A stretch of 64,000 nt of DNA from Caldifarciminota bacterium (lineage in GTDB: Bacteria > Hydrothermota > Hydrothermia > LBFQ01 > DSFT01): NCBI GenBank assembly GCA_025060695.1, contig JANXBH010000001.1, forward strand, positions 1 through 64,000, in the 5' to 3' direction. Both the position numbers and the translations under genes were made by a program. A model generated the notes under the pieces. It ran no database searches. It was not told the origin of the DNA and saw nothing but the letters and a program-made list of their open reading frames with translations. Below are positions 1 through 28,211 of this stretch, one piece after another (position 1 is the first letter of the stretch; every line of letters begins with the position of its first letter).

Positions 1-1
1 A

Positions 2-325
2 ATTCTGGACTATGAAGGTGATAAAAGGGTAAATAAAAATACAACTGTGGTATCTATTGGGATTTTCTTATCGCAATTACTTTCTATGATAGGACTTTTA
101 ATTGGATTTTTTATTTCAAGTGAAATTTATATTAAAACTGCATTTTTTTTATCTTTTTTATTTTTATCCTTAGATGAATATAAGCTCTCAATTGGCATAC
201 CATTGTTAATACTTCTTGTTTATCCTTCTATACACGGATATATTGAAATACTTATAATATCAATTTTGCTATTTTTGGCATCCGAAATATACTATAGATT
301 GGTTTTTAAAAGAGGCGTGCTTTAA
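2..325 (+). CDS. Membrane protein, 5'-truncated by the window edge
   Basis: The frame is open from base 2, so the ORF-track start at 47 (a GTG) is probably internal and the gene begins outside the window. The visible C-terminal part is almost wholly hydrophobic, with about three membrane segments separated by short loops (for example near LDEYKLS and SEIYYRL) and ending in a basic tail, FKRGVL. It lies directly upstream of acpP-fabF, where lipid-synthesis genes are common, but I cannot assign a family from this fragment. The next gene's promoter motif begins at its last codons. Confidence is good that it is coding and low on function. Confidence 0.5.
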   Translation: MLDYEGDKRVNKNTTVVSIGIFLSQLLSMIGLLIGFFISSEIYIKTAFFLSFLFLSLDEYKLSIGIPLLILLVYPSIHGYIEILIISILLFLASEIYYRLVFKRGVL

Positions 326-349
326 AATTGTCAAAGCAAAAAAGGAGGG
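320..349 (+). promoter_or_regulatory. acpP promoter and Shine-Dalgarno leader
   Basis: A CTTTAAAAT motif (-10 box TAAAAT at 323-328) is followed about 15 nt later by the strong ribosome-binding site AAAGGAGGG, then the ATG at 355. This is one of the few genes here with the shared -10 motif and a true leader. The Shine-Dalgarno site shows that the ORF-track start at 328 (TTG) is wrong, because that start would place the ribosome-binding site inside the coding sequence. Confidence 0.6.
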
Positions 350-354
350 AAGTT

Positions 355-594
355 ATGAACTTCGATGTTGACAGATTCAAAAAACTTATAGCTGATGAGC
401 TTTCTATAGATCCATCTCAGGTAAAGGAAGAAGCAAAGTTTATAGAGGACCTTGGTGCTGATTCTATTGGGCTAATGGAACTTGTGATGAAATTTGAAGA
501 GGAGTATGGTATAAAAATACCAGACCAAGATATTGAAAAAATTAGAACTGTTGGTGATGCAATAAATTATATAAAGAGTAAATTGTCCTCATGA
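355..594 (+). CDS. acpP: Acyl carrier protein
   Basis: This 79-residue acidic protein is the carrier that holds growing acyl chains as a 4'-phosphopantetheine thioester during fatty-acid synthesis in the cytoplasm. The DSIGLMEL motif contains the attachment serine (about residue 37), and the length is typical for AcpP. I start it at the ATG at 355 because a strong AAAGGAGGG site lies just upstream; the tracked 328 start adds nine atypical residues. The stop overlaps the fabF start (ATGA), so the two are probably translationally coupled. The order acpP-fabF-rnc is classical for bacteria. Confidence 0.95.
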   Translation: MNFDVDRFKKLIADELSIDPSQVKEEAKFIEDLGADSIGLMELVMKFEEEYGIKIPDQDIEKIRTVGDAINYIKSKLSS

Positions 595-1838
595 GAAGAG
601 TTGTAATAACTGGTATGGGGGCACTAACGCCCCTTGGAAAAACTGTAGAAGAATTTTGGAATAACTTAATCGAAGGTAAAAGTGGTATAAGAAAAATAGA
701 TAGGTTTGATACTTCAAACTTAAAGACTCAAATAGCAGGATTAATACCTGAGAACTTTGACCCACTTGAAAGATTAGACAAAAAAGAGGCAGGTGTTCCA
801 ATAAATAAACTTGATAGATTTTCAACTTACACGTTATATGCGTCCGCTGAAGCTATTGAAGATGCAAAATTATATAATGTAAATCCTGATAGAATAGGTG
901 TAATTATAGCAAGTGGTATAGGTGGTATTGAAACCTTAGTGAATGAGATAAAAGTATCATTAGAAAAAGGATACGATAGGGTTAGTCCGTATTTAATTCC
1001 TATGATGATACCCGATATGGCAAGTGGTCTTGTTTCAATTAAGTATAAATTTAAAGGTCCTAATTTTTGCACAGTCTCAGCATGTTCATCTTCAGCACAT
1101 GCAATAGGTGAGGCGTACAGACTTATAAAATATGGTGATGCGGATATAATAGTTGCAGGTGGAAGTGAAGCTCCCATTATTCCTATAGCAATCTCAGGAT
1201 TCAATCAAATTAGAGCGCTTTCTACAAGAAATGATGAACCACAAAAAGCCTCCAGACCTTTTGATAAACTTAGAGATGGATTCGTAATGGGTGAAGGCGC
1301 AGGTATAGTAGTTTTAGAAGAATTAGAACATGCGATAAAAAGAGGTGCGAGAATATATGCGGAGATTGTAGGTTATGGGCAAAGTGCTGATGCATATCAT
1401 ATTACTGCACCTTGTGTAGATGGAGAAGGTGCAATAAAGTGCATGTTAAACGCAATAAAAGATGCAAAAGTTGATATTTCCGAAATTAGCTATATAAATG
1501 CACACGGAACTTCCACTGAACTAAACGATAAGTCTGAAACTCTTGCAATAAAATCAGTATTTAAAGAATATGCATATAAAATTCCTATAAGTTCTACTAA
1601 ATCTATGATAGGTCATTTACTTGGTGCAGCGGGTGTAGTTGAAAGTATTGCAGTTATAAAGTCAATTCAAACAGGAATTATTCATCCTACTATAAACTAC
1701 GAAGTGCCTGACCCAGAATGTGATTTGGACTATGTCCCAAATGTTAAAAGAAATAGTGAAATAAGATATGCGCTAAAAAATTCTTTTGGTTTTGGTGGTC
1801 ATAATGTATCATTAGTATTTAAGAAATTTGAAGATTGA
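591..1838 (+). CDS. fabF: 3-oxoacyl-ACP synthase II
   Basis: This 415-residue KAS II condenses malonyl-ACP with acyl-ACP to extend fatty acids. The Cys-His-His triad is visible: the nucleophile in TVSACSSS (Cys about 165), the first histidine in NAHGTSTE and the second in GHLLGAAG. The N-terminal VVITGMGALTPLG and C-terminal NSFGFGGHN are family hallmarks. Its start overlaps the acpP stop by four bases, and its 3' end overlaps the next gene by 11. It uses AcpP from the gene before it as acyl donor. Length and motifs are complete and nothing is unusual. Confidence 0.96.
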   Translation: MRRVVITGMGALTPLGKTVEEFWNNLIEGKSGIRKIDRFDTSNLKTQIAGLIPENFDPLERLDKKEAGVPINKLDRFSTYTLYASAEAIEDAKLYNVNPDRIGVIIASGIGGIETLVNEIKVSLEKGYDRVSPYLIPMMIPDMASGLVSIKYKFKGPNFCTVSACSSSAHAIGEAYRLIKYGDADIIVAGGSEAPIIPIAISGFNQIRALSTRNDEPQKASRPFDKLRDGFVMGEGAGIVVLEELEHAIKRGARIYAEIVGYGQSADAYHITAPCVDGEGAIKCMLNAIKDAKVDISEISYINAHGTSTELNDKSETLAIKSVFKEYAYKIPISSTKSMIGHLLGAAGVVESIAVIKSIQTGIIHPTINYEVPDPECDLDYVPNVKRNSEIRYALKNSFGFGGHNVSLVFKKFED

Positions 1839-21914: not shown

Positions 21915-22152
21915 CCATTACCAAGTCCAATATCCTGCAGAAGTTTGAAAAAACTCTTCAAAATATTTATTTACAACAAAAGTATAAATAGCATCACTTC
22001 TAAAGTCTAATGAATTACTAAAAAGTCGTGTCTTTCATATTTAAGAAGCCGTATCCCCTTGCTTGAATATATTCTCTATCTATTGGATTAGAAGTAAATT
22101 GAAGTGCAAAACCAGTAGAAAAAAATATAATAAAAAGGAATTTATTTATCTA
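21915..22152 (-). pseudogene. Eroded copy of the 23401-24174 lipoprotein gene
   Basis: Blocks of this stretch match the neighbouring barrel-like lipoprotein gene nearly base for base (for example CCGTATCCCCTTGCTT and AGTATAAATAGCATCAC), in the same order and on the same strand, but with several internal deletions between them. One deletion is bounded by the 10-base repeat TTCAAAATAT in the intact copy, as expected for slippage. The start codon is changed to ATA, the 3' half is missing and no promoter is left. It is a dead partial duplicate. Confidence 0.85.
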
Positions 22153-22592
22153 AACTTTTCAAAAGGGTTCTTACAATTATTACAATAGTATATCATTCTA
22201 CATCTAGTTGGACCAAACTCACTTTTTAAAACTACATTCTTTGAATTACAGTATGGACAAGTTTCTTCGTCAGGAGGACAAATTCCTGCCTCTTTAAGAG
22301 CAATTTTTCCTCTTGGTGTAATATCCGAACTTCTCCAAGGAGGACTATAAACCCATACTACTTCAAAATCGTTTATATTCATATCTTTTAAGTCATTTTC
22401 AATACTAAGCTTTATCAAATCTAGTGCAATGCAGTTTGTATAGGTTTTCTTTATTTCAACTATTACTTTATTTTCTAAGACTTTTATATCATGAATTATG
22501 CCTAAGTCTAAAATACTAATAGTTGGAATTTCAGGGTCTTTTATGCGAGAAATTTTCTCCAATATTCTCTCTTTTAAATTACCACCTTGCAT
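22146..22592 (-). CDS. paaD: PaaD-like protein (MIP18 domain plus zinc ribbon)
   Basis: This 148-residue protein has an N-terminal MIP18/DUF59 domain (IKDPEIPTISILDLGIIHDI, with the family Cys in YTNCIALD) and a C-terminal four-cysteine ribbon, CPYCNSKN...CNNC followed by PFEKF, which is the PaaD arrangement. PaaD is needed to mature the phenylacetyl-CoA epoxidase complex, probably by iron-sulfur delivery. It overlaps the PaaC-like gene by 14 nt. No paaA, paaB or paaE is present in this window, so the real partner may be the PaaC-like protein alone. The last codons sit against the pseudogene. Confidence 0.85.
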   Translation of the reverse strand: MQGGNLKERILEKISRIKDPEIPTISILDLGIIHDIKVLENKVIVEIKKTYTNCIALDLIKLSIENDLKDMNINDFEVVWVYSPPWRSSDITPRGKIALKEAGICPPDEETCPYCNSKNVVLKSEFGPTRCRMIYYCNNCKNPFEKFR

Positions 22593-23307
22593 CTGGTTCT
22601 AATCTATATACTTCTGTAAAGGTTTCATAAAATTTTAAAAAACTTTCACTTTTTTCTCCTCTTCTTGATTTAAAACTACTTAAATTCAATAAAACCTCAT
22701 CTTTGCTTGGAAATTTATAAAACGGAAAATCTAATTTTATTCTTTCATAAAACTTATCAAAGTGCTCTTCATAACTTATAGGAAATATATCAGTTCCATA
22801 TACTTTCAGAATTTCATTGTCTACTTCAAAAATACTAAAAAGTTCATACTTAAACTTATCAATAGTGTTTGAAATTACCTTTTTACCTTCCTCTTTTTGT
22901 GCGAGTTTATTTAAAATTATCCTAAAATGTTTTAAATGATAGTCTTCTTCTATTATAATTTTTTCCGCTCTTGATTTTAGTTCATAATTACTTGAATTTA
23001 AAAGTGCACCTATTCTAATATAGTCAAATTCATCGTAAAATAGATGTCTAACTAATGTAAATACATAATCGTAGTTTTCAAGTTCTGTAATGTATGCATT
23101 TTTAAATAATTTTGGTTCTCTTTTATATACAAAATCATCAGGATTTCCTATAATTTCATAGAACATACTTGCATGTGATATTTCATCTTGAGCTATTGAT
23201 GAAAGTGCTAAATCTTCTTCTAAAAATGGTCCAACACCTGTCCACTCGCAATCTCTATAACCTAAAATTAAATCATCATCTGCAAAATAAAATATTAAGT
23301 TTTCCAT
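22579..23307 (-). CDS. PaaC-like ferritin-type diiron protein
   Basis: This 242-residue four-helix protein matches PaaC of the phenylacetyl-CoA monooxygenase (ADDDLILGYRDCEWTGVGPF, EEDLALSSIAQDE). PaaC is a structural subunit that has lost its iron ligands, but here both ExxH pairs are visible: DEISHA in the second helix and EEDYHLKH in the fourth, with acidic residues in the first (CEW) and third (YDEFDYI). A working diiron site is therefore plausible. It is paired with a PaaD-like gene and preceded by a leaderless-type promoter (TAAAAT 7 nt before ATG). The substrate is unknown; an oxygen-using enzyme would be notable in an otherwise anaerobic-looking gene set. Confidence 0.75.
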   Translation of the reverse strand: MENLIFYFADDDLILGYRDCEWTGVGPFLEEDLALSSIAQDEISHASMFYEIIGNPDDFVYKREPKLFKNAYITELENYDYVFTLVRHLFYDEFDYIRIGALLNSSNYELKSRAEKIIIEEDYHLKHFRIILNKLAQKEEGKKVISNTIDKFKYELFSIFEVDNEILKVYGTDIFPISYEEHFDKFYERIKLDFPFYKFPSKDEVLLNLSSFKSRRGEKSESFLKFYETFTEVYRLEPDARW

Positions 23308-23400: not shown

Positions 23401-24174
23401 TTAACTAAATAAGGCACTTATTATATATAGAAAAATACCACCAGGGCAAAATGTTTCCTTTTCTATACGATAACACTTAAAAAACCCAGGTCCTCCAAAA
23501 CTTATAGCAAAATTTAGTATTGGAATAACTCTTCTATTTTCACTAAGGTAAACTGGGAAAAATCCTAATTCTATATTAAATCTAAAATCAGGTGATATGT
23601 CTTTAGAACTCTTTCTTTTTTGTTGGATGTATATATTAAATCCACTACCAAGTCCGAAAAATTGATAATATCCATTTCCTACATTGCCTAAAGGCTTGTA
23701 TCCTGCAGAAGCTTGAAAAAACTCTTCAAAATATGGATGATAATATGCTTGGTAAAAAACAAATGGTTCAAAATATTTATTTACAACAAAAGTATAAATA
23801 GCATCACCTCTAAAACCTAATGAATTACTGAAAAATGGATCATATAAAAAGTAAGGAGTTATTGAAAATATATGTCGTGTCTTTCCTATTTTTTTATTAT
23901 ATAGTTCAATTTTAAGAAATGGTCCAAGCCCTGCACCTGATAAATTAAAACCAACATCTAAACCTTTTAATATACCATATGAAAAACCAATATTAAAATT
24001 ACCTAATAAGCCGTATCCCCTTGCTTCAATATATTCTCTATCTATTGGATTAGAAGTAAATTGAAGTGCAAAACCAGTAGAAAAGTCAAAATTCCCTTCA
24101 CCAACTGTCCTTGGTCTTTGATATATTCCAAAAAAGCAACCGCTTAAAAATATAATAAAAAGGAACTTGTTCAT
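23401..24174 (-). CDS. Barrel-like outer-membrane lipoprotein
   Basis: The first 13 residues, MNKFLFIIFLSGC, form a short signal with a lipobox (LSGC). The rest is rich in Tyr, Phe and Gly with alternating strands (FNIGFSYGILKGLDVGFNLS, FRFNIELGFFPVY), which suggests a beta-barrel or beta-sheet protein in the outer membrane. I know no family name for it. A decayed partial copy lies about 1.2 kb downstream at 21915-22152, so the locus has been duplicated. The gap of 93 bp before paaC has only a weak GGAAA/TTTCC hairpin. Confidence 0.65.
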   Translation of the reverse strand: MNKFLFIIFLSGCFFGIYQRPRTVGEGNFDFSTGFALQFTSNPIDREYIEARGYGLLGNFNIGFSYGILKGLDVGFNLSGAGLGPFLKIELYNKKIGKTRHIFSITPYFLYDPFFSNSLGFRGDAIYTFVVNKYFEPFVFYQAYYHPYFEEFFQASAGYKPLGNVGNGYYQFFGLGSGFNIYIQQKRKSSKDISPDFRFNIELGFFPVYLSENRRVIPILNFAISFGGPGFFKCYRIEKETFCPGGIFLYIISALFS

Positions 24175-24210: not shown

Positions 24211-25083
24211 TCAAAGCTTTAATTTTGATATATAAGAATAGCTTTCTATTTCAAGAATACTATAAGCCTGAATGACTTTTTCAATATCAACCATAACATT
24301 AGCTCCCAGTCTTTTTAGCATATATACTAAGTCCTCGGTCGCAATATTACCTCTCGCATTAGGTGCGAACGGACATCCTCCAATACCACCTACTGAGCTA
24401 TCGAACTTATAAATAGAAAATTCCCTATATGCAATATATACATTTGCACTTGCCATACCATAGGTTACATGAAAATGCATTACAATATTATCCCTTTTTA
24501 TATCCTTTAATATTAACTCTAATAACTCCCTTACGTCATCTGGACTTGCTTTTCCAATTGTGTCTCCCAATGAAATTTCATCAACCCCCATATTTAATAG
24601 CTTTAATGATATATCTCTTACCTTCATACTATCTATTTTACCTTCATATGGACACCAGAATGCTGTTGAAATATATGCCCTTGTTAGTTTTGAACTTTCC
24701 TTTGCAATCTTTATAATATTTTTAAATTTATTTAAAGATTCTTCTATACTCATATTGATATTCTTTAAATTAAACGTTTCACTCGCAGAAGTAAAAACGC
24801 TTATTTTATCTACATTTACACTTAATGCCCTTTCTAATCCTTTTTCATTTGGAACAAGTGCAGAATAGATAATTTTCTTGTTTCTCTTTATGTTTTTAAA
24901 TACCTCTTCCGCATCAGAAAGCTGCGGAACTAACTTTGGAGATACGAACGACGATACTTCAATTTCGTCCACATTGCTTTCAGAAAGTAAATTTATAAAC
25001 TCTACTTTTTTTTTAGTATCTATTATTTTAGGATAGTTTTGAAGTCCATCTCTTGGTCCTACTTCTGTTATATATATTTTCAA
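24211..25083 (-). CDS. Hydroxymethylglutaryl-CoA lyase family protein
   Basis: The TIM-barrel motifs are those of HMG-CoA lyase: TEVGPRDGLQN at the N-terminus, the metal histidines in HFHVTYGMA, and the catalytic cysteine in GGCPFAPNARGN. This enzyme splits HMG-CoA to acetyl-CoA and acetoacetate in leucine or ketone-body metabolism; a thiolase and biotin carboxylase lie nearby. The usual HxHDT aspartate is Val here. The tracked start at 25149 translates the tRNA-Cys gene and is wrong. I place the start at the TTG at 25083, giving MKIYITEVGPRDGL, exactly the family N-terminus. This codon abuts the discriminator base of tRNA-Cys. Confidence 0.88.
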   Translation of the reverse strand: MKIYITEVGPRDGLQNYPKIIDTKKKVEFINLLSESNVDEIEVSSFVSPKLVPQLSDAEEVFKNIKRNKKIIYSALVPNEKGLERALSVNVDKISVFTSASETFNLKNINMSIEESLNKFKNIIKIAKESSKLTRAYISTAFWCPYEGKIDSMKVRDISLKLLNMGVDEISLGDTIGKASPDDVRELLELILKDIKRDNIVMHFHVTYGMASANVYIAYREFSIYKFDSSVGGIGGCPFAPNARGNIATEDLVYMLKRLGANVMVDIEKVIQAYSILEIESYSYISKLKL

Positions 25084-25155
25084 AGGCGACTCCCGGATTC
25101 GAACCGGGGTAAAGCGGTTTTGCAAACCGCCGCCTAGCCGCTCGGCCAAGTCGCC
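25084..25155 (-). tRNA. tRNA-Cys (GCA)
   Basis: A complete cloverleaf can be folded: acceptor GGCGACT/AGTCGCC, anticodon loop TTGCAAA with anticodon GCA, and T arm CCGGG/CCCGG around TTCGAAT. The discriminator base is U (25084), as in other bacterial tRNA-Cys. CCA is not encoded. The next base after the discriminator is the first base of the HMG-CoA lyase start codon, so 3' processing of the tRNA would produce the lyase mRNA. Confidence 0.97.
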
Positions 25156-25161
25156 AAGTTT

Positions 25162-26211
25162 TCAAATTTTAAAGTCCAAAAGAAATTTTACTTTTTCTTC
25201 TATTAAATGAGAAAAAGTTGGGGTATTTTCAAGAGTTTTACTTGCATTTTTTGAAAGTTTTTTTAAAAGTGCTTCATCCTTAGATAAACTATATACCGAG
25301 TTTACAAACTCATCTATATCAAATTTTCTTACTAAAATTCCGTTTTCTAAGTGTTTAATCTTTGTCCATATTGAAATATCAAATGCAATTACAGGTTTTG
25401 AATAGAATAAGGCTTCAATTGTTGGAAGTGTCATATTTCCATAATGAACAGGATTTATCAAAAAATCAATAGATGAATAAAACTTATAGTTTTGAAAATA
25501 CGGAAGATTACTTATTATAGTAATGTTCTTATATTTTCCTTGGAGTTTATAAAGTTTTTTATTTTCACCCTTCAAAAGCACAATAAGATGAATGTTTTTG
25601 TATTTTAGTATCTTTTCAAAAATTTCTAAAATAATTTTCTCACCTTTATATTTAGAGATTGCACCACAATAGCCAACATTTATACAACCCTCTTTTCTAT
25701 ATACTGGTTCAATCTTTAGAAAATCTGGCTTTGGATGTTCGTACAATTTTATTTTATATGAAGGTATTCCAAGAAGCATAGCAAATAGACTTCCATTAGT
25801 CCCATCTTCCCAAATAATATAAAAATTAGCTTGTTTTTTAAAACTATTTAAAAGTTGCTTATATCTTATTTTGATATAAAAACTATTTATATTCCACACT
25901 AAAGGATTTAAGACTATACCAAAATGCTCGTTAATATATGGAATGTTATGTTCTCTTGAAATTTCCAACGCAATATTATGAAACTGATGAGAAAATGCAA
26001 TAATTAAATCGTATTTTGAAGCTTTAAAGTCTCTAAAGTTTATAAAATTAATATTTTCATAAGGTTTATATTTACTGCTTCCACAAAAAACCCAATCTAC
26101 TATAGTATTTTTATACTTTCTAAGTTCGTTTAGCAAATAGTAATTCAAAGGTGCTCCTACCACATTTTCATTCCAGTCATTTTCCCAAGGACTAAGAATT
26201 AATATTTTCAA
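25162..26211 (-). CDS. Glycosyltransferase family 4-like protein
   Basis: This 349-residue protein has a GT-B layout: an N-terminal half starting MKILILSPWENDW and a C-terminal half with the donor-binding EALFYSKPVIAFD and ILVRKFDIDEFV. It probably moves a sugar onto a surface glycan or lipid on the cytoplasmic side; donor and acceptor are unknown. The start is TTG overlapping the stop of the phosphodiesterase upstream. The final codons, GAC TTT AAA ATT TGA, contain the promoter motif of tRNA-Cys, so coding and promoter overlap at this end. Confidence 0.85.
   Translation of the reverse strand: MKILILSPWENDWNENVVGAPLNYYLLNELRKYKNTIVDWVFCGSSKYKPYENINFINFRDFKASKYDLIIAFSHQFHNIALEISREHNIPYINEHFGIVLNPLVWNINSFYIKIRYKQLLNSFKKQANFYIIWEDGTNGSLFAMLLGIPSYKIKLYEHPKPDFLKIEPVYRKEGCINVGYCGAISKYKGEKIILEIFEKILKYKNIHLIVLLKGENKKLYKLQGKYKNITIISNLPYFQNYKFYSSIDFLINPVHYGNMTLPTIEALFYSKPVIAFDISIWTKIKHLENGILVRKFDIDEFVNSVYSLSKDEALLKKLSKNASKTLENTPTFSHLIEEKVKFLLDFKI
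25166..25173 (-). promoter_or_regulatory. tRNA-Cys -10 motif inside glycosyltransferase 3' end
   Basis: TTTAAAAT lies 10 nt before the tRNA 5' end. It is read as Phe-Lys-Ile at the C-terminus of the upstream gene. The same motif precedes many protein genes here, so tRNA and mRNA promoters share one form. Confidence 0.55.
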
Positions 26212-26705
26212 ACTACTTCTTTTATCTCTACTTTTATGGTATTATTTTTAATTTCTAAGATTGCATAGGTTCTTTTATGTCCTAAAAAAGTGTCAGTAGG
26301 ACTTCCAGGATTAACTACATGAATTCCATTTTCATATTTATAGTATGCAATATGACTATGACCGAATATAATTACATCAAAGTTCTCAGAATAATTTTTT
26401 AATTTTTGAATAACTCTCTCTTTTAGTCCAACAGGTGGTCCAAGACCATGAAATAGACCAAATTTAAATCTTTCAATTTCAAAAACTTCAACTTCTTTTA
26501 GTATATCAAGTAATTTTACTTCATCCATGTTTCCATATACTGCAACGATTGGCTTTAGAGTTTTTAGCTCATTGTACACATCAGCTATTACAAAATCCCC
26601 AGCATGAATAATCATATCGCTATTTTCAATCTCCTCATAAATTATCTTTGGTAAGGATTTTGCTCTAAATGGAATGTGCGTATCAGATAGTATTATAATT
26701 CTCAT
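26208..26705 (-). CDS. YfcE/MJ0936-type metallophosphodiesterase
   Basis: The binuclear-metal phosphoesterase motifs are all present: SDTHIPF, HAGDFV, YGNMDE, FGHSHIAY and the late NPGSPTD typical of the YfcE/MJ0936 group. Such enzymes hydrolyse phosphodiesters in vitro; the natural substrate is generally not known. I use the ATG at 26705 (MRIIILSDTHIP) rather than the tracked TTG two codons earlier, because that ATG overlaps the PduO stop (ATGA). It is the second gene of a PduO-phosphodiesterase-glycosyltransferase unit. Confidence 0.9.
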   Translation of the reverse strand: MRIIILSDTHIPFRAKSLPKIIYEEIENSDMIIHAGDFVIADVYNELKTLKPIVAVYGNMDEVKLLDILKEVEVFEIERFKFGLFHGLGPPVGLKERVIQKLKNYSENFDVIIFGHSHIAYYKYENGIHVVNPGSPTDTFLGHKRTYAILEIKNNTIKVEIKEVV

Positions 26706-27253
26706 TTCCAACTTACATATTCTTCTTCTATATTATCTAACTTGGCAACATATCTTGCTAAGACAAAAAATAGGTCAGATAGTCTATTTAGATACACTAA
26801 AACATTTTTATTAACTTCTTCCTCTTTCATTAATCTTACTACATTTCTTTCCGCTCTCCTTGTAATTGTCCTACATATGTGAAATAGTGATACTTTTTCA
26901 TTTCCATATGGTAAAATAAAGTCCTTTAATGGTTCTAATTTTTCATTATATTCATCTATCCAATTTTCCAATATTTTTATTTTCTCTTCTTCAATTCTAA
27001 ATGTTTTTTCGAAACTCATAGGTGTTGCTAAGTCTGAACCAATGATAAATAAATCATTTTGAATTGTTTTAAGCTTCTCGTCTATTTCTTTATATTCCTT
27101 TACTTTTATTCTGAGATAGCCGATAAAGCTATTTAGTTCATCTACATCTCCATACGCACTTACTCTTGCGCTATCTTTATACACTCTACTTCCATCTACA
27201 AGTTGAGTTAAACCATTATCTCCTTGCTTTGTATATACCTTCGTTATACGCAT
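26702..27253 (-). CDS. ATP:cob(I)alamin adenosyltransferase, PduO type
   Basis: This 183-residue enzyme transfers adenosyl from ATP to cob(I)alamin, making adenosylcobalamin for mutases. Family motifs are YTKQGDNGLT at the ATP site, YGDVDELNSFIG, FILPYG and RTITRRAERNVV. The presence of a B12 coenzyme enzyme suggests methylmalonyl-CoA mutase, ribonucleotide reductase or similar elsewhere in the genome. It is transcribed divergently from trxB from a 34-bp gap, with TAAAAT 6 nt before its ATG. Confidence 0.93.
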   Translation of the reverse strand: MRITKVYTKQGDNGLTQLVDGSRVYKDSARVSAYGDVDELNSFIGYLRIKVKEYKEIDEKLKTIQNDLFIIGSDLATPMSFEKTFRIEEEKIKILENWIDEYNEKLEPLKDFILPYGNEKVSLFHICRTITRRAERNVVRLMKEEEVNKNVLVYLNRLSDLFFVLARYVAKLDNIEEEYVSWK

Positions 27254-27287: not shown

Positions 27288-28211
27288 ATGAACTACGATG
27301 TGATTATTGTAGGTGGTGGACCTGCAGGTTTTACTGCAGGAATTTATGTAGCAAGGGCGATGTACAAGGCTATAATTGTAGAAAAAAGTGTACCAGGTGG
27401 TCAAGTGGCAATATCAGACATTGTGGATAATTATACTGGTTTTATTGAAATTACAGGTTCTGAATTAAGTCAAAAGATGTTGGAGCATGTTATGAAATTT
27501 GATGTCCCAATTGAATATAGCGAGGTAGTTGAAATTTGGAAAGAAGACAAAACCTTTTATGTTAAACTAATAGATGATAGAATTTTAACTTCAAAGGCAT
27601 TAATTGTAGCAACGGGAGCAAGTCCAAGAAAATTAAATGTTAAGGGAGAGGCTGAGTTTTATGGAAGAGGTGTTTCGTATTGTGCGGTATGTGATGGTGC
27701 ATTTTTTAAAAATAAAGTAGTAGCAGTTGTAGGTGGCGGAGATTCTGCATTTACTGAAGGTTTATATCTATCTAATATAGTATCGAAACTATATTTAATA
27801 CACAGAAGAGAACAATTTAGAGCTCAACCTATATACGTTGAAAGGTTAAAACAAAGACAAAATACAGAATTTATATTAAATAGTGTAGTAAAGGAAATAA
27901 TAGGAGAAAAGAAAGTTAGTGATATTATATTAGAAAATTTAAAAACAGGAGAAATTAGTAGTTTAAGAGTTGATGGTATTTTCATATACATAGGTATGGT
28001 GCCACAAAATCAGATTTTAAGGAATTTCAAAGAATTAAAGTATGATGAAAATGGATTTGTAATAGCAGATGAAACTACAAGAACAGAAATTGAAGGATTG
28101 TTTGTCGCAGGTGATTTAAGAAGTAAGCACTTAAGACAGATTACGACTGCTGTAAGTGATGGTGCATATGCAGGAACTATGGCAGTAGAGTATATCCAAA
28201 ATAACTTTTAA
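27288..28211 (+). CDS. trxB: Thioredoxin reductase
   Basis: TrxB uses NADPH and FAD to reduce thioredoxin. The FAD motif is IIVGGGPAGFTAGIY, the redox-active pair is CAVCDG (about residues 134-137), the NAD(P) motif is VVGGGDSAFTEG, and the second FAD motif is GLFVAGDLR. The length of 307 is normal. The HRREQFRAQ sequence after the dinucleotide fold keeps HRR, which usually goes with NADPH preference. It is the first gene of a unit with a thiolase, an export-like protein, PqqD and accC. Confidence 0.95.
   Translation: MNYDVIIVGGGPAGFTAGIYVARAMYKAIIVEKSVPGGQVAISDIVDNYTGFIEITGSELSQKMLEHVMKFDVPIEYSEVVEIWKEDKTFYVKLIDDRILTSKALIVATGASPRKLNVKGEAEFYGRGVSYCAVCDGAFFKNKVVAVVGGGDSAFTEGLYLSNIVSKLYLIHRREQFRAQPIYVERLKQRQNTEFILNSVVKEIIGEKKVSDIILENLKTGEISSLRVDGIFIYIGMVPQNQILRNFKELKYDENGFVIADETTRTEIEGLFVAGDLRSKHLRQITTAVSDGAYAGTMAVEYIQNNF

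Follow-up and report, generated by a model that had tools for sequence, protein, structure and literature searches.

A tRNA-Cys gene directly precedes the gene for hydroxymethylglutaryl-CoA lyase

The minus strand of the stretch of DNA analyzed here (64,000 nucleotides, hereafter the window) carries a glycosyltransferase gene, a tRNA-Cys gene and a gene for hydroxymethylglutaryl-CoA (HMG-CoA) lyase, in that order (Table 1). The tRNA gene specifies a cloverleaf with a GCA anticodon and ends with U73 at 25084, which is followed with zero gap by the lyase TTG (25083–25081); the sequence after U73, TTG AAA ATA TAT ATA ACA, opens the lyase frame with LKIYITEVGPRDGLQN. The earlier note had described this direct junction. 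ARAGORN and Rfam both placed tRNA-Cys accordingly, and the note's observation that CCA is absent from the 3′ end of the tRNA gene also held. On the other side of the tRNA gene, the promoter-like element TTTAAAAT ends 10 nt upstream, within the 3′-terminal part of the glycosyltransferase gene. The stop codon of the latter lies 6 nt before tRNA-Cys, so that read-through transcription from the glycosyltransferase gene into the tRNA gene is also possible. Downstream of the lyase gene, the same strand encodes the phenylacetyl-CoA epoxidase subunits PaaC and PaaD (window positions 22146–23307, minus strand).

Table 1 Features of the tRNA-Cys/lyase junction (window coordinates)
Feature	Position	Strand	Basis
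Glycosyltransferase gene upstream of tRNA-Cys	25162..26211	-	ORF; Pfam PF00534
Promoter-like element TTTAAAAT, within CTTTAAAATTT	25166..25173	-	Sequence
tRNA-Cys (GCA)	25084..25155	-	ARAGORN; Rfam RF00005, 59.4 bits; predicted cloverleaf fold
GGGAG, SD-like stretch in the T stem and acceptor stem	25090..25094	-	Sequence; predicted fold
Predicted cleavage directly after 25084 (nt 73)	25083..25084	-	Inferred from tRNA anatomy
TTG start codon of the lyase	25081..25083	-	Aligned with ATG of relatives
Hydroxymethylglutaryl-CoA lyase gene, 290 codons and stop	24211..25083	-	NCBIfam NF004283, 370.6 bits; Pfam HMGL-like

The lyase product scored above the curated cut-off of NF004283 (246 bits), with residues 2–276 aligned to profile positions 6–279, as expected for a hydroxymethylglutaryl-CoA lyase with an intact N-terminus. 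In seven relatives from the order or the family, an ATG stands in the alignment column of the TTG; at the remaining aligned loci, the start lies within two codons of this column or the N-terminus is different. The next in-frame start lies 111 nt downstream, and its use would remove the GPRDGLQN motif. Alignment with homologs confirmed the TTG at 25083 as the start codon, and the N-terminus is the one that the earlier note had expected of an HMG-CoA lyase.

The ORF finder placed the lyase start at 25149, inside tRNA-Cys. We rejected this start, which the earlier note had already called an artefact, since the homologs start at the TTG and the sister species has the lyase in another frame with respect to the tRNA. 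In the latter, which is the closest relative with the lyase gene (80 percent identical), tRNA-Gln and tRNA-Cys are followed by CA and then by TTG AAA ATT TAT ATA ACA; the TTG and the N-terminus are thus kept, with a spacer of 2 nt between the tRNA and the lyase gene. A search of genome contigs returned the sister species only, and no tRNA adjoins the lyase at the lyase loci of other genera in the family and order.

Gene starts abut tRNA genes at many sites of the genome

We tallied the surroundings of all 42 tRNAs of the genome from the retrieved loci. Seven of them precede another tRNA, and most of the others precede a gene on the same strand. The start codon of that gene lies 0–9 nt after nucleotide 73 in about 26 of 29 same-strand tRNA-gene junctions. 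With ATG, GTG and TTG alone, 21 of 28 junctions fell within 9 nt; inspection then added three CTG starts (rdgB, a HAD phosphatase and a membrane protein), one ATA start (a family 2 glycosyltransferase) and the L33 gene, whose ORF had initially been missed because it is shorter than the filter of the tally. By chance, a start within 9 nt would be expected in about 9 percent of junctions, given the frequency of in-frame ATG, GTG and TTG inside these ORFs (2.7 percent). The genes directly following tRNAs include those for the ribosomal proteins L19, L31 and L33, as well as ndk, the malate dehydrogenase gene, rdgB and gcvPA. NCBIfam profiles agreed with the starts at the junctions: residue 1 of L31 aligned with profile position 1, and L33, Ndk, malate dehydrogenase, RdgB and others aligned within a few residues.

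The gaps of the 26 abutting junctions leave no room for a promoter or a Shine-Dalgarno (SD) leader. Such signals are present in the three exceptions, two of which have a promoter of their own and one an SD leader. The gaps after tRNA-Arg(CCG) and tRNA-Gly(CCC) contain CTTTAAAATT at a leaderless distance from the start, and the gap between tRNA-Ile and glnA holds AAAGGAGG in a 78-nt leader that ends with AAAGGAGGTTTATAAT-ATG.

Several junctions have features of their own. Both rdgB after tRNA-Tyr and the gene after tRNA-His start with CTG in this genome and in the sister species. For the HAD gene that follows tRNA-Leu(TAG), the start is CTG here and ATG in the sister species, and the glycosyltransferase gene after tRNA-Val(TAC) starts with ATA in both (these starts are in loci L054, L050, L026 and L004 and in the sister loci L098, L070 and L063). 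Such starts would be misplaced by standard gene callers. The sole tRNA of the 42 with CCA right after nucleotide 73 is tRNA-Lys(CTT), which lies inside an Arg-Lys-Pro-His tRNA cluster (L026); its copy in the sister species lacks CCA. The protein encoded after tRNA-Pro(CGG) (L017, positions 1–1500, minus strand) matches only the C-terminal domain of helicases (Helicase_C). In this locus, the N-terminal half of a helicase is not found upstream of the tRNA, and the sister species has a homolog at the same site.

Abutting junctions are conserved in the sister species

In the sister species, 21 of 29 junctions have a start at 0–8 nt (ATG, GTG and TTG counted). The two species share 24 tRNA-gene pairs, at least 22 of which abut. 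In 12 shared abutting pairs, counted by eye, the gap differs between the species by a length not divisible by three; the frame relative to the tRNA is therefore different, which excludes a start inside the tRNA at these sites. The earlier note had expected the zero spacing to be conserved in relatives. It is not: the spacing at the lyase is 2 nt in the sister species, and across the genome it ranges from 0 to 9 nt, with 1–4 nt the commonest. What is conserved appears to be the absence of a leader rather than the zero gap.

The pattern was not found in another genus of the family, where 4 of 24 junctions abut, nor in a class-level relative (1 of 25) or a phylum-level relative (3 of 21, several having SD leaders of about 20 nt), with some relatives sampled only in part. 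The proportion in the present genome (21 of 28) differs from that in the other genus (Fisher p = 3e-5) and from that in the class- and phylum-level relatives together (4 of 46; p = 6e-9). Among the genomes compared, the high density of abutting junctions is confined to the two species, and this narrow distribution counts against the excision model proposed below. These full tRNA tallies in chosen genomes replaced a scan in which 60 relatives were searched for ATG behind a T-loop motif, at abutting versus control distance; we dropped it because of the background from non-tRNA matches.

Promoter elements lie close to gene starts

The exact TTTAAAAT element occurs 6–11 nt from the start upstream of 15 genes of the window, against an expected 0.17. 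In the retrieved DNA of the genome, it ends 5–14 nt (mostly 6–10 nt) before the start in 38 promoter-led genes. Transcription generally starts about 6–7 nt downstream of such a motif; if it does so here, the positions suggest that the 38 genes have leaders of 0–4 nt. Thus, leaderless expression looks common in this organism, judging from the placement of the motif. Since five of the 38 genes start with TTG, leaderless TTG starts are plausible here. The longer form CTTTAAAATTT lies about 6–11 nt before most gene starts of the window (for example, those of 22579–23307 and 26702–27253 on the minus strand and 27288–28211 on the plus strand); it is often common to divergent genes arranged head to head and looks like a −10 box at a leaderless distance.

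The same element precedes many tRNAs: an exact copy is present upstream of 27 of the 42, and a match of at least 7 of 8 nt within 40 nt upstream of 32. The 16S rRNA has an intact anti-SD (3′ end, GGATCACCTCCTTT).

Origin of the 5′ end of the lyase mRNA

From this anatomy, we infer that tRNA-Cys and the lyase gene form one transcription unit, which would be transcribed mainly from the TTTAAAAT promoter that ends 10 nt before tRNA-Cys. Excision of tRNA-Cys from the transcript, with a cut at or just after nucleotide 73, would also form the 5′ end of the lyase mRNA. This mRNA would have a leader of about 0 nt and begin with UUG, and the ribosome would initiate on the 5′-terminal UUG independently of an SD sequence. 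In the predicted fold, the cloverleaf of tRNA-Cys abuts the lyase start codon, and the lyase mRNA taken alone is unpaired over its first 18 nt; a tRNA folded in this way would sit where the 30S subunit must bind. The start codon would be freed most simply by excision, because the 3′ ends of the tRNAs hold no promoter match above 6 of 8 nt and no SD match above 4 nt, the GGGAG is buried, and the tRNA fold reaches the start. We therefore consider it probable that the lyase mRNA obtains its 5′ end through excision of tRNA-Cys, and that this junction exemplifies a genus-wide layout in which tRNAs punctuate transcripts. In this genus, such punctuation would be the ordinary route of expression for genes that follow tRNAs; promoter-made mRNAs would also often have their start codon within a few nucleotides of the 5′ end, and if their leaders are 0–4 nt, leaders made by processing and by promoters would be alike.

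The close packing of tRNAs and genes could alternatively reflect compaction only, with translation starting on the uncut tRNA-mRNA through SD-like bases in the tRNA. The window is indeed dense (95 percent ORF), and GGGAG is located 6 nt before the lyase TTG here and 8 nt before it in the sister species. This stretch, the sole SD candidate for the lyase, is however paired within the T and acceptor stems of the predicted tRNA-Cys fold, leaving no SD sequence open to the lyase start. We also rejected an SD inside the tRNA as a general device, since the SD match in the last 24 nt of the tRNAs never exceeds 4 nt and reaches 4 nt in just 4 of 42. Moreover, a distant relative has tRNA-gene pairs as well and yet keeps leaders of about 15–22 nt in them, several with AGGAG or GGAGG. 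We regard initiation on the uncut transcript as unlikely. Transcription of the lyase gene and others like it might instead begin independently, at the start codon or immediately ahead of it, from a promoter inside the tRNA gene; this would suit an organism in which promoter-led leaderless genes look common. An independent promoter at this position was nonetheless rejected: no match to TTTAAAAT above 6 of 8 nt exists in the last 30 nt of any of the 42 tRNAs, and the genes after tRNAs that do have their own promoter have a longer gap. This explanation is very improbable.

The enzyme that would make the cut bears on the remaining alternative. In known bacteria, tRNAs without an encoded CCA go with an endonuclease that cuts after nucleotide 73, and an RNase Z-type endonuclease leaves a 5′ phosphate. 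RNase Z, which the earlier note had named as the cutting enzyme, was not detected here, in the sister species or elsewhere in the order. The NCBIfam profile for RNase Z, which found its target in all 14 control genomes, gave a 36.7-bit match here and reached its cut-off in none of 21 genomes. A query with a divergent RNase Z, taken from a different family in the class, retrieved no true relative in the order, and the Thermotoga-type RNase Z profile gave no match. The only RNase Z-like match (contig C3, positions 23519–23935; L059) was set aside, since it has a generic metallo-beta-lactamase fold and reaches higher scores with other families. RNase E/G was likewise not detected in the genome or the order. 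The genome is 95 percent complete, and the gene might lie in a missing piece, but RNase Z went equally undetected in the sister species and the other members of the order.

These negative searches would fit a model in which exonucleases make the tRNA 3′ ends and the downstream gene is translated from another cut in its first nucleotides or from read-through transcripts. Exonucleolytic trimming would destroy the downstream mRNA and in that respect counts against excision. It sits poorly with the 41 of 42 tRNAs that lack an encoded CCA, and P. acnes has no clear tRNase Z and yet cuts close to the 3′ ends of its tRNAs (PMC3848588). We find the exonuclease model quite improbable. Excision as the source of the lyase 5′ end requires neither RNase Z nor a specific zero gap, and neither of these is supported. 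Thus, of the original proposal that one cut matures the tRNA and frees the mRNA, the core stands, in that the 5′ end is explained most economically by 3′ processing of the tRNA, given gaps that hold no promoter or SD and a layout that recurs at about 26 junctions; RNase Z and a conserved zero gap do not.

Initiation on UUG also has evidence against it from other bacteria: UUG and CUG are poor leaderless starts in mycobacteria (PMC4633059), and non-AUG leaderless starts are weak in E. coli (PMC9031893). In E. coli, translation of leaderless mRNAs reportedly requires a 5′ phosphate (Giliberti 2012, as cited in PMC9031893).

Relation to known systems

Punctuation of transcripts by tRNAs is textbook knowledge for animal mitochondria. 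It was described by Ojala, Montoya and Attardi (1981), as cited in PMC5203842; in animal mitochondria, start codons stand at or near the 5′ ends of mRNAs, and AUA is a start (PMC5203842). The present system is alike in that tRNAs abut genes, excision would leave the start codon at or near the 5′ end, and non-AUG starts occur, AUA being found in both. It differs in belonging to a free-living bacterium with a normal anti-SD, SD-led genes, many promoters and many ordinary operon genes; in addition, only genes after tRNAs are concerned, TTG and CTG serve as starts, and no RNase Z was found.

The leaderless (TA-led) genes of Actinobacteria and Deinococcus-Thermus (PMC3160421, PMC4633059) resemble those described here in lacking an SD and, for the promoter-led genes, in having a −10-like box some 10 nt ahead of the start codon. 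By contrast, RNA processing would give rise to the 5′ end of the lyase mRNA, which would bear a monophosphate, and genes that follow tRNAs often start with TTG or CTG, codons that work poorly as leaderless starts in mycobacteria. The leaderless mRNAs made by E. coli MazF, as cited in PMC3848588, share a post-transcriptional origin by an endonuclease; MazF is a stress toxin that cuts mRNA leaders, whereas constitutive tRNA maturation would be at work here. In the open-licence literature, we found no bacterial report of tRNA excision that makes leaderless mRNAs, nor of genome-wide punctuation in bacteria.

The broadest form of the proposal is that this bacterial genus generally uses tRNA excision to produce leaderless mRNAs of some 26 genes, including those for ribosomal proteins, with relaxed starts (ATG, TTG, CTG and ATA) and a tRNA 3′ endonuclease other than RNase Z or RNase E/G; we give this an even chance. 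If it is true, tRNA maturation would be tied to the translation of linked genes, as an independently arisen bacterial counterpart of mitochondrial punctuation, and would supply leaderless mRNAs with a 5′ monophosphate. The supply of tRNAs would be linked to the expression of metabolic and ribosomal genes, TTG, CTG and ATA would serve as starts positioned at the 5′ ends of mRNAs or close to them, and a tRNA 3′ endonuclease of new identity would be indicated. In such genomes, gene callers would put starts inside tRNAs or miss non-ATG starts.
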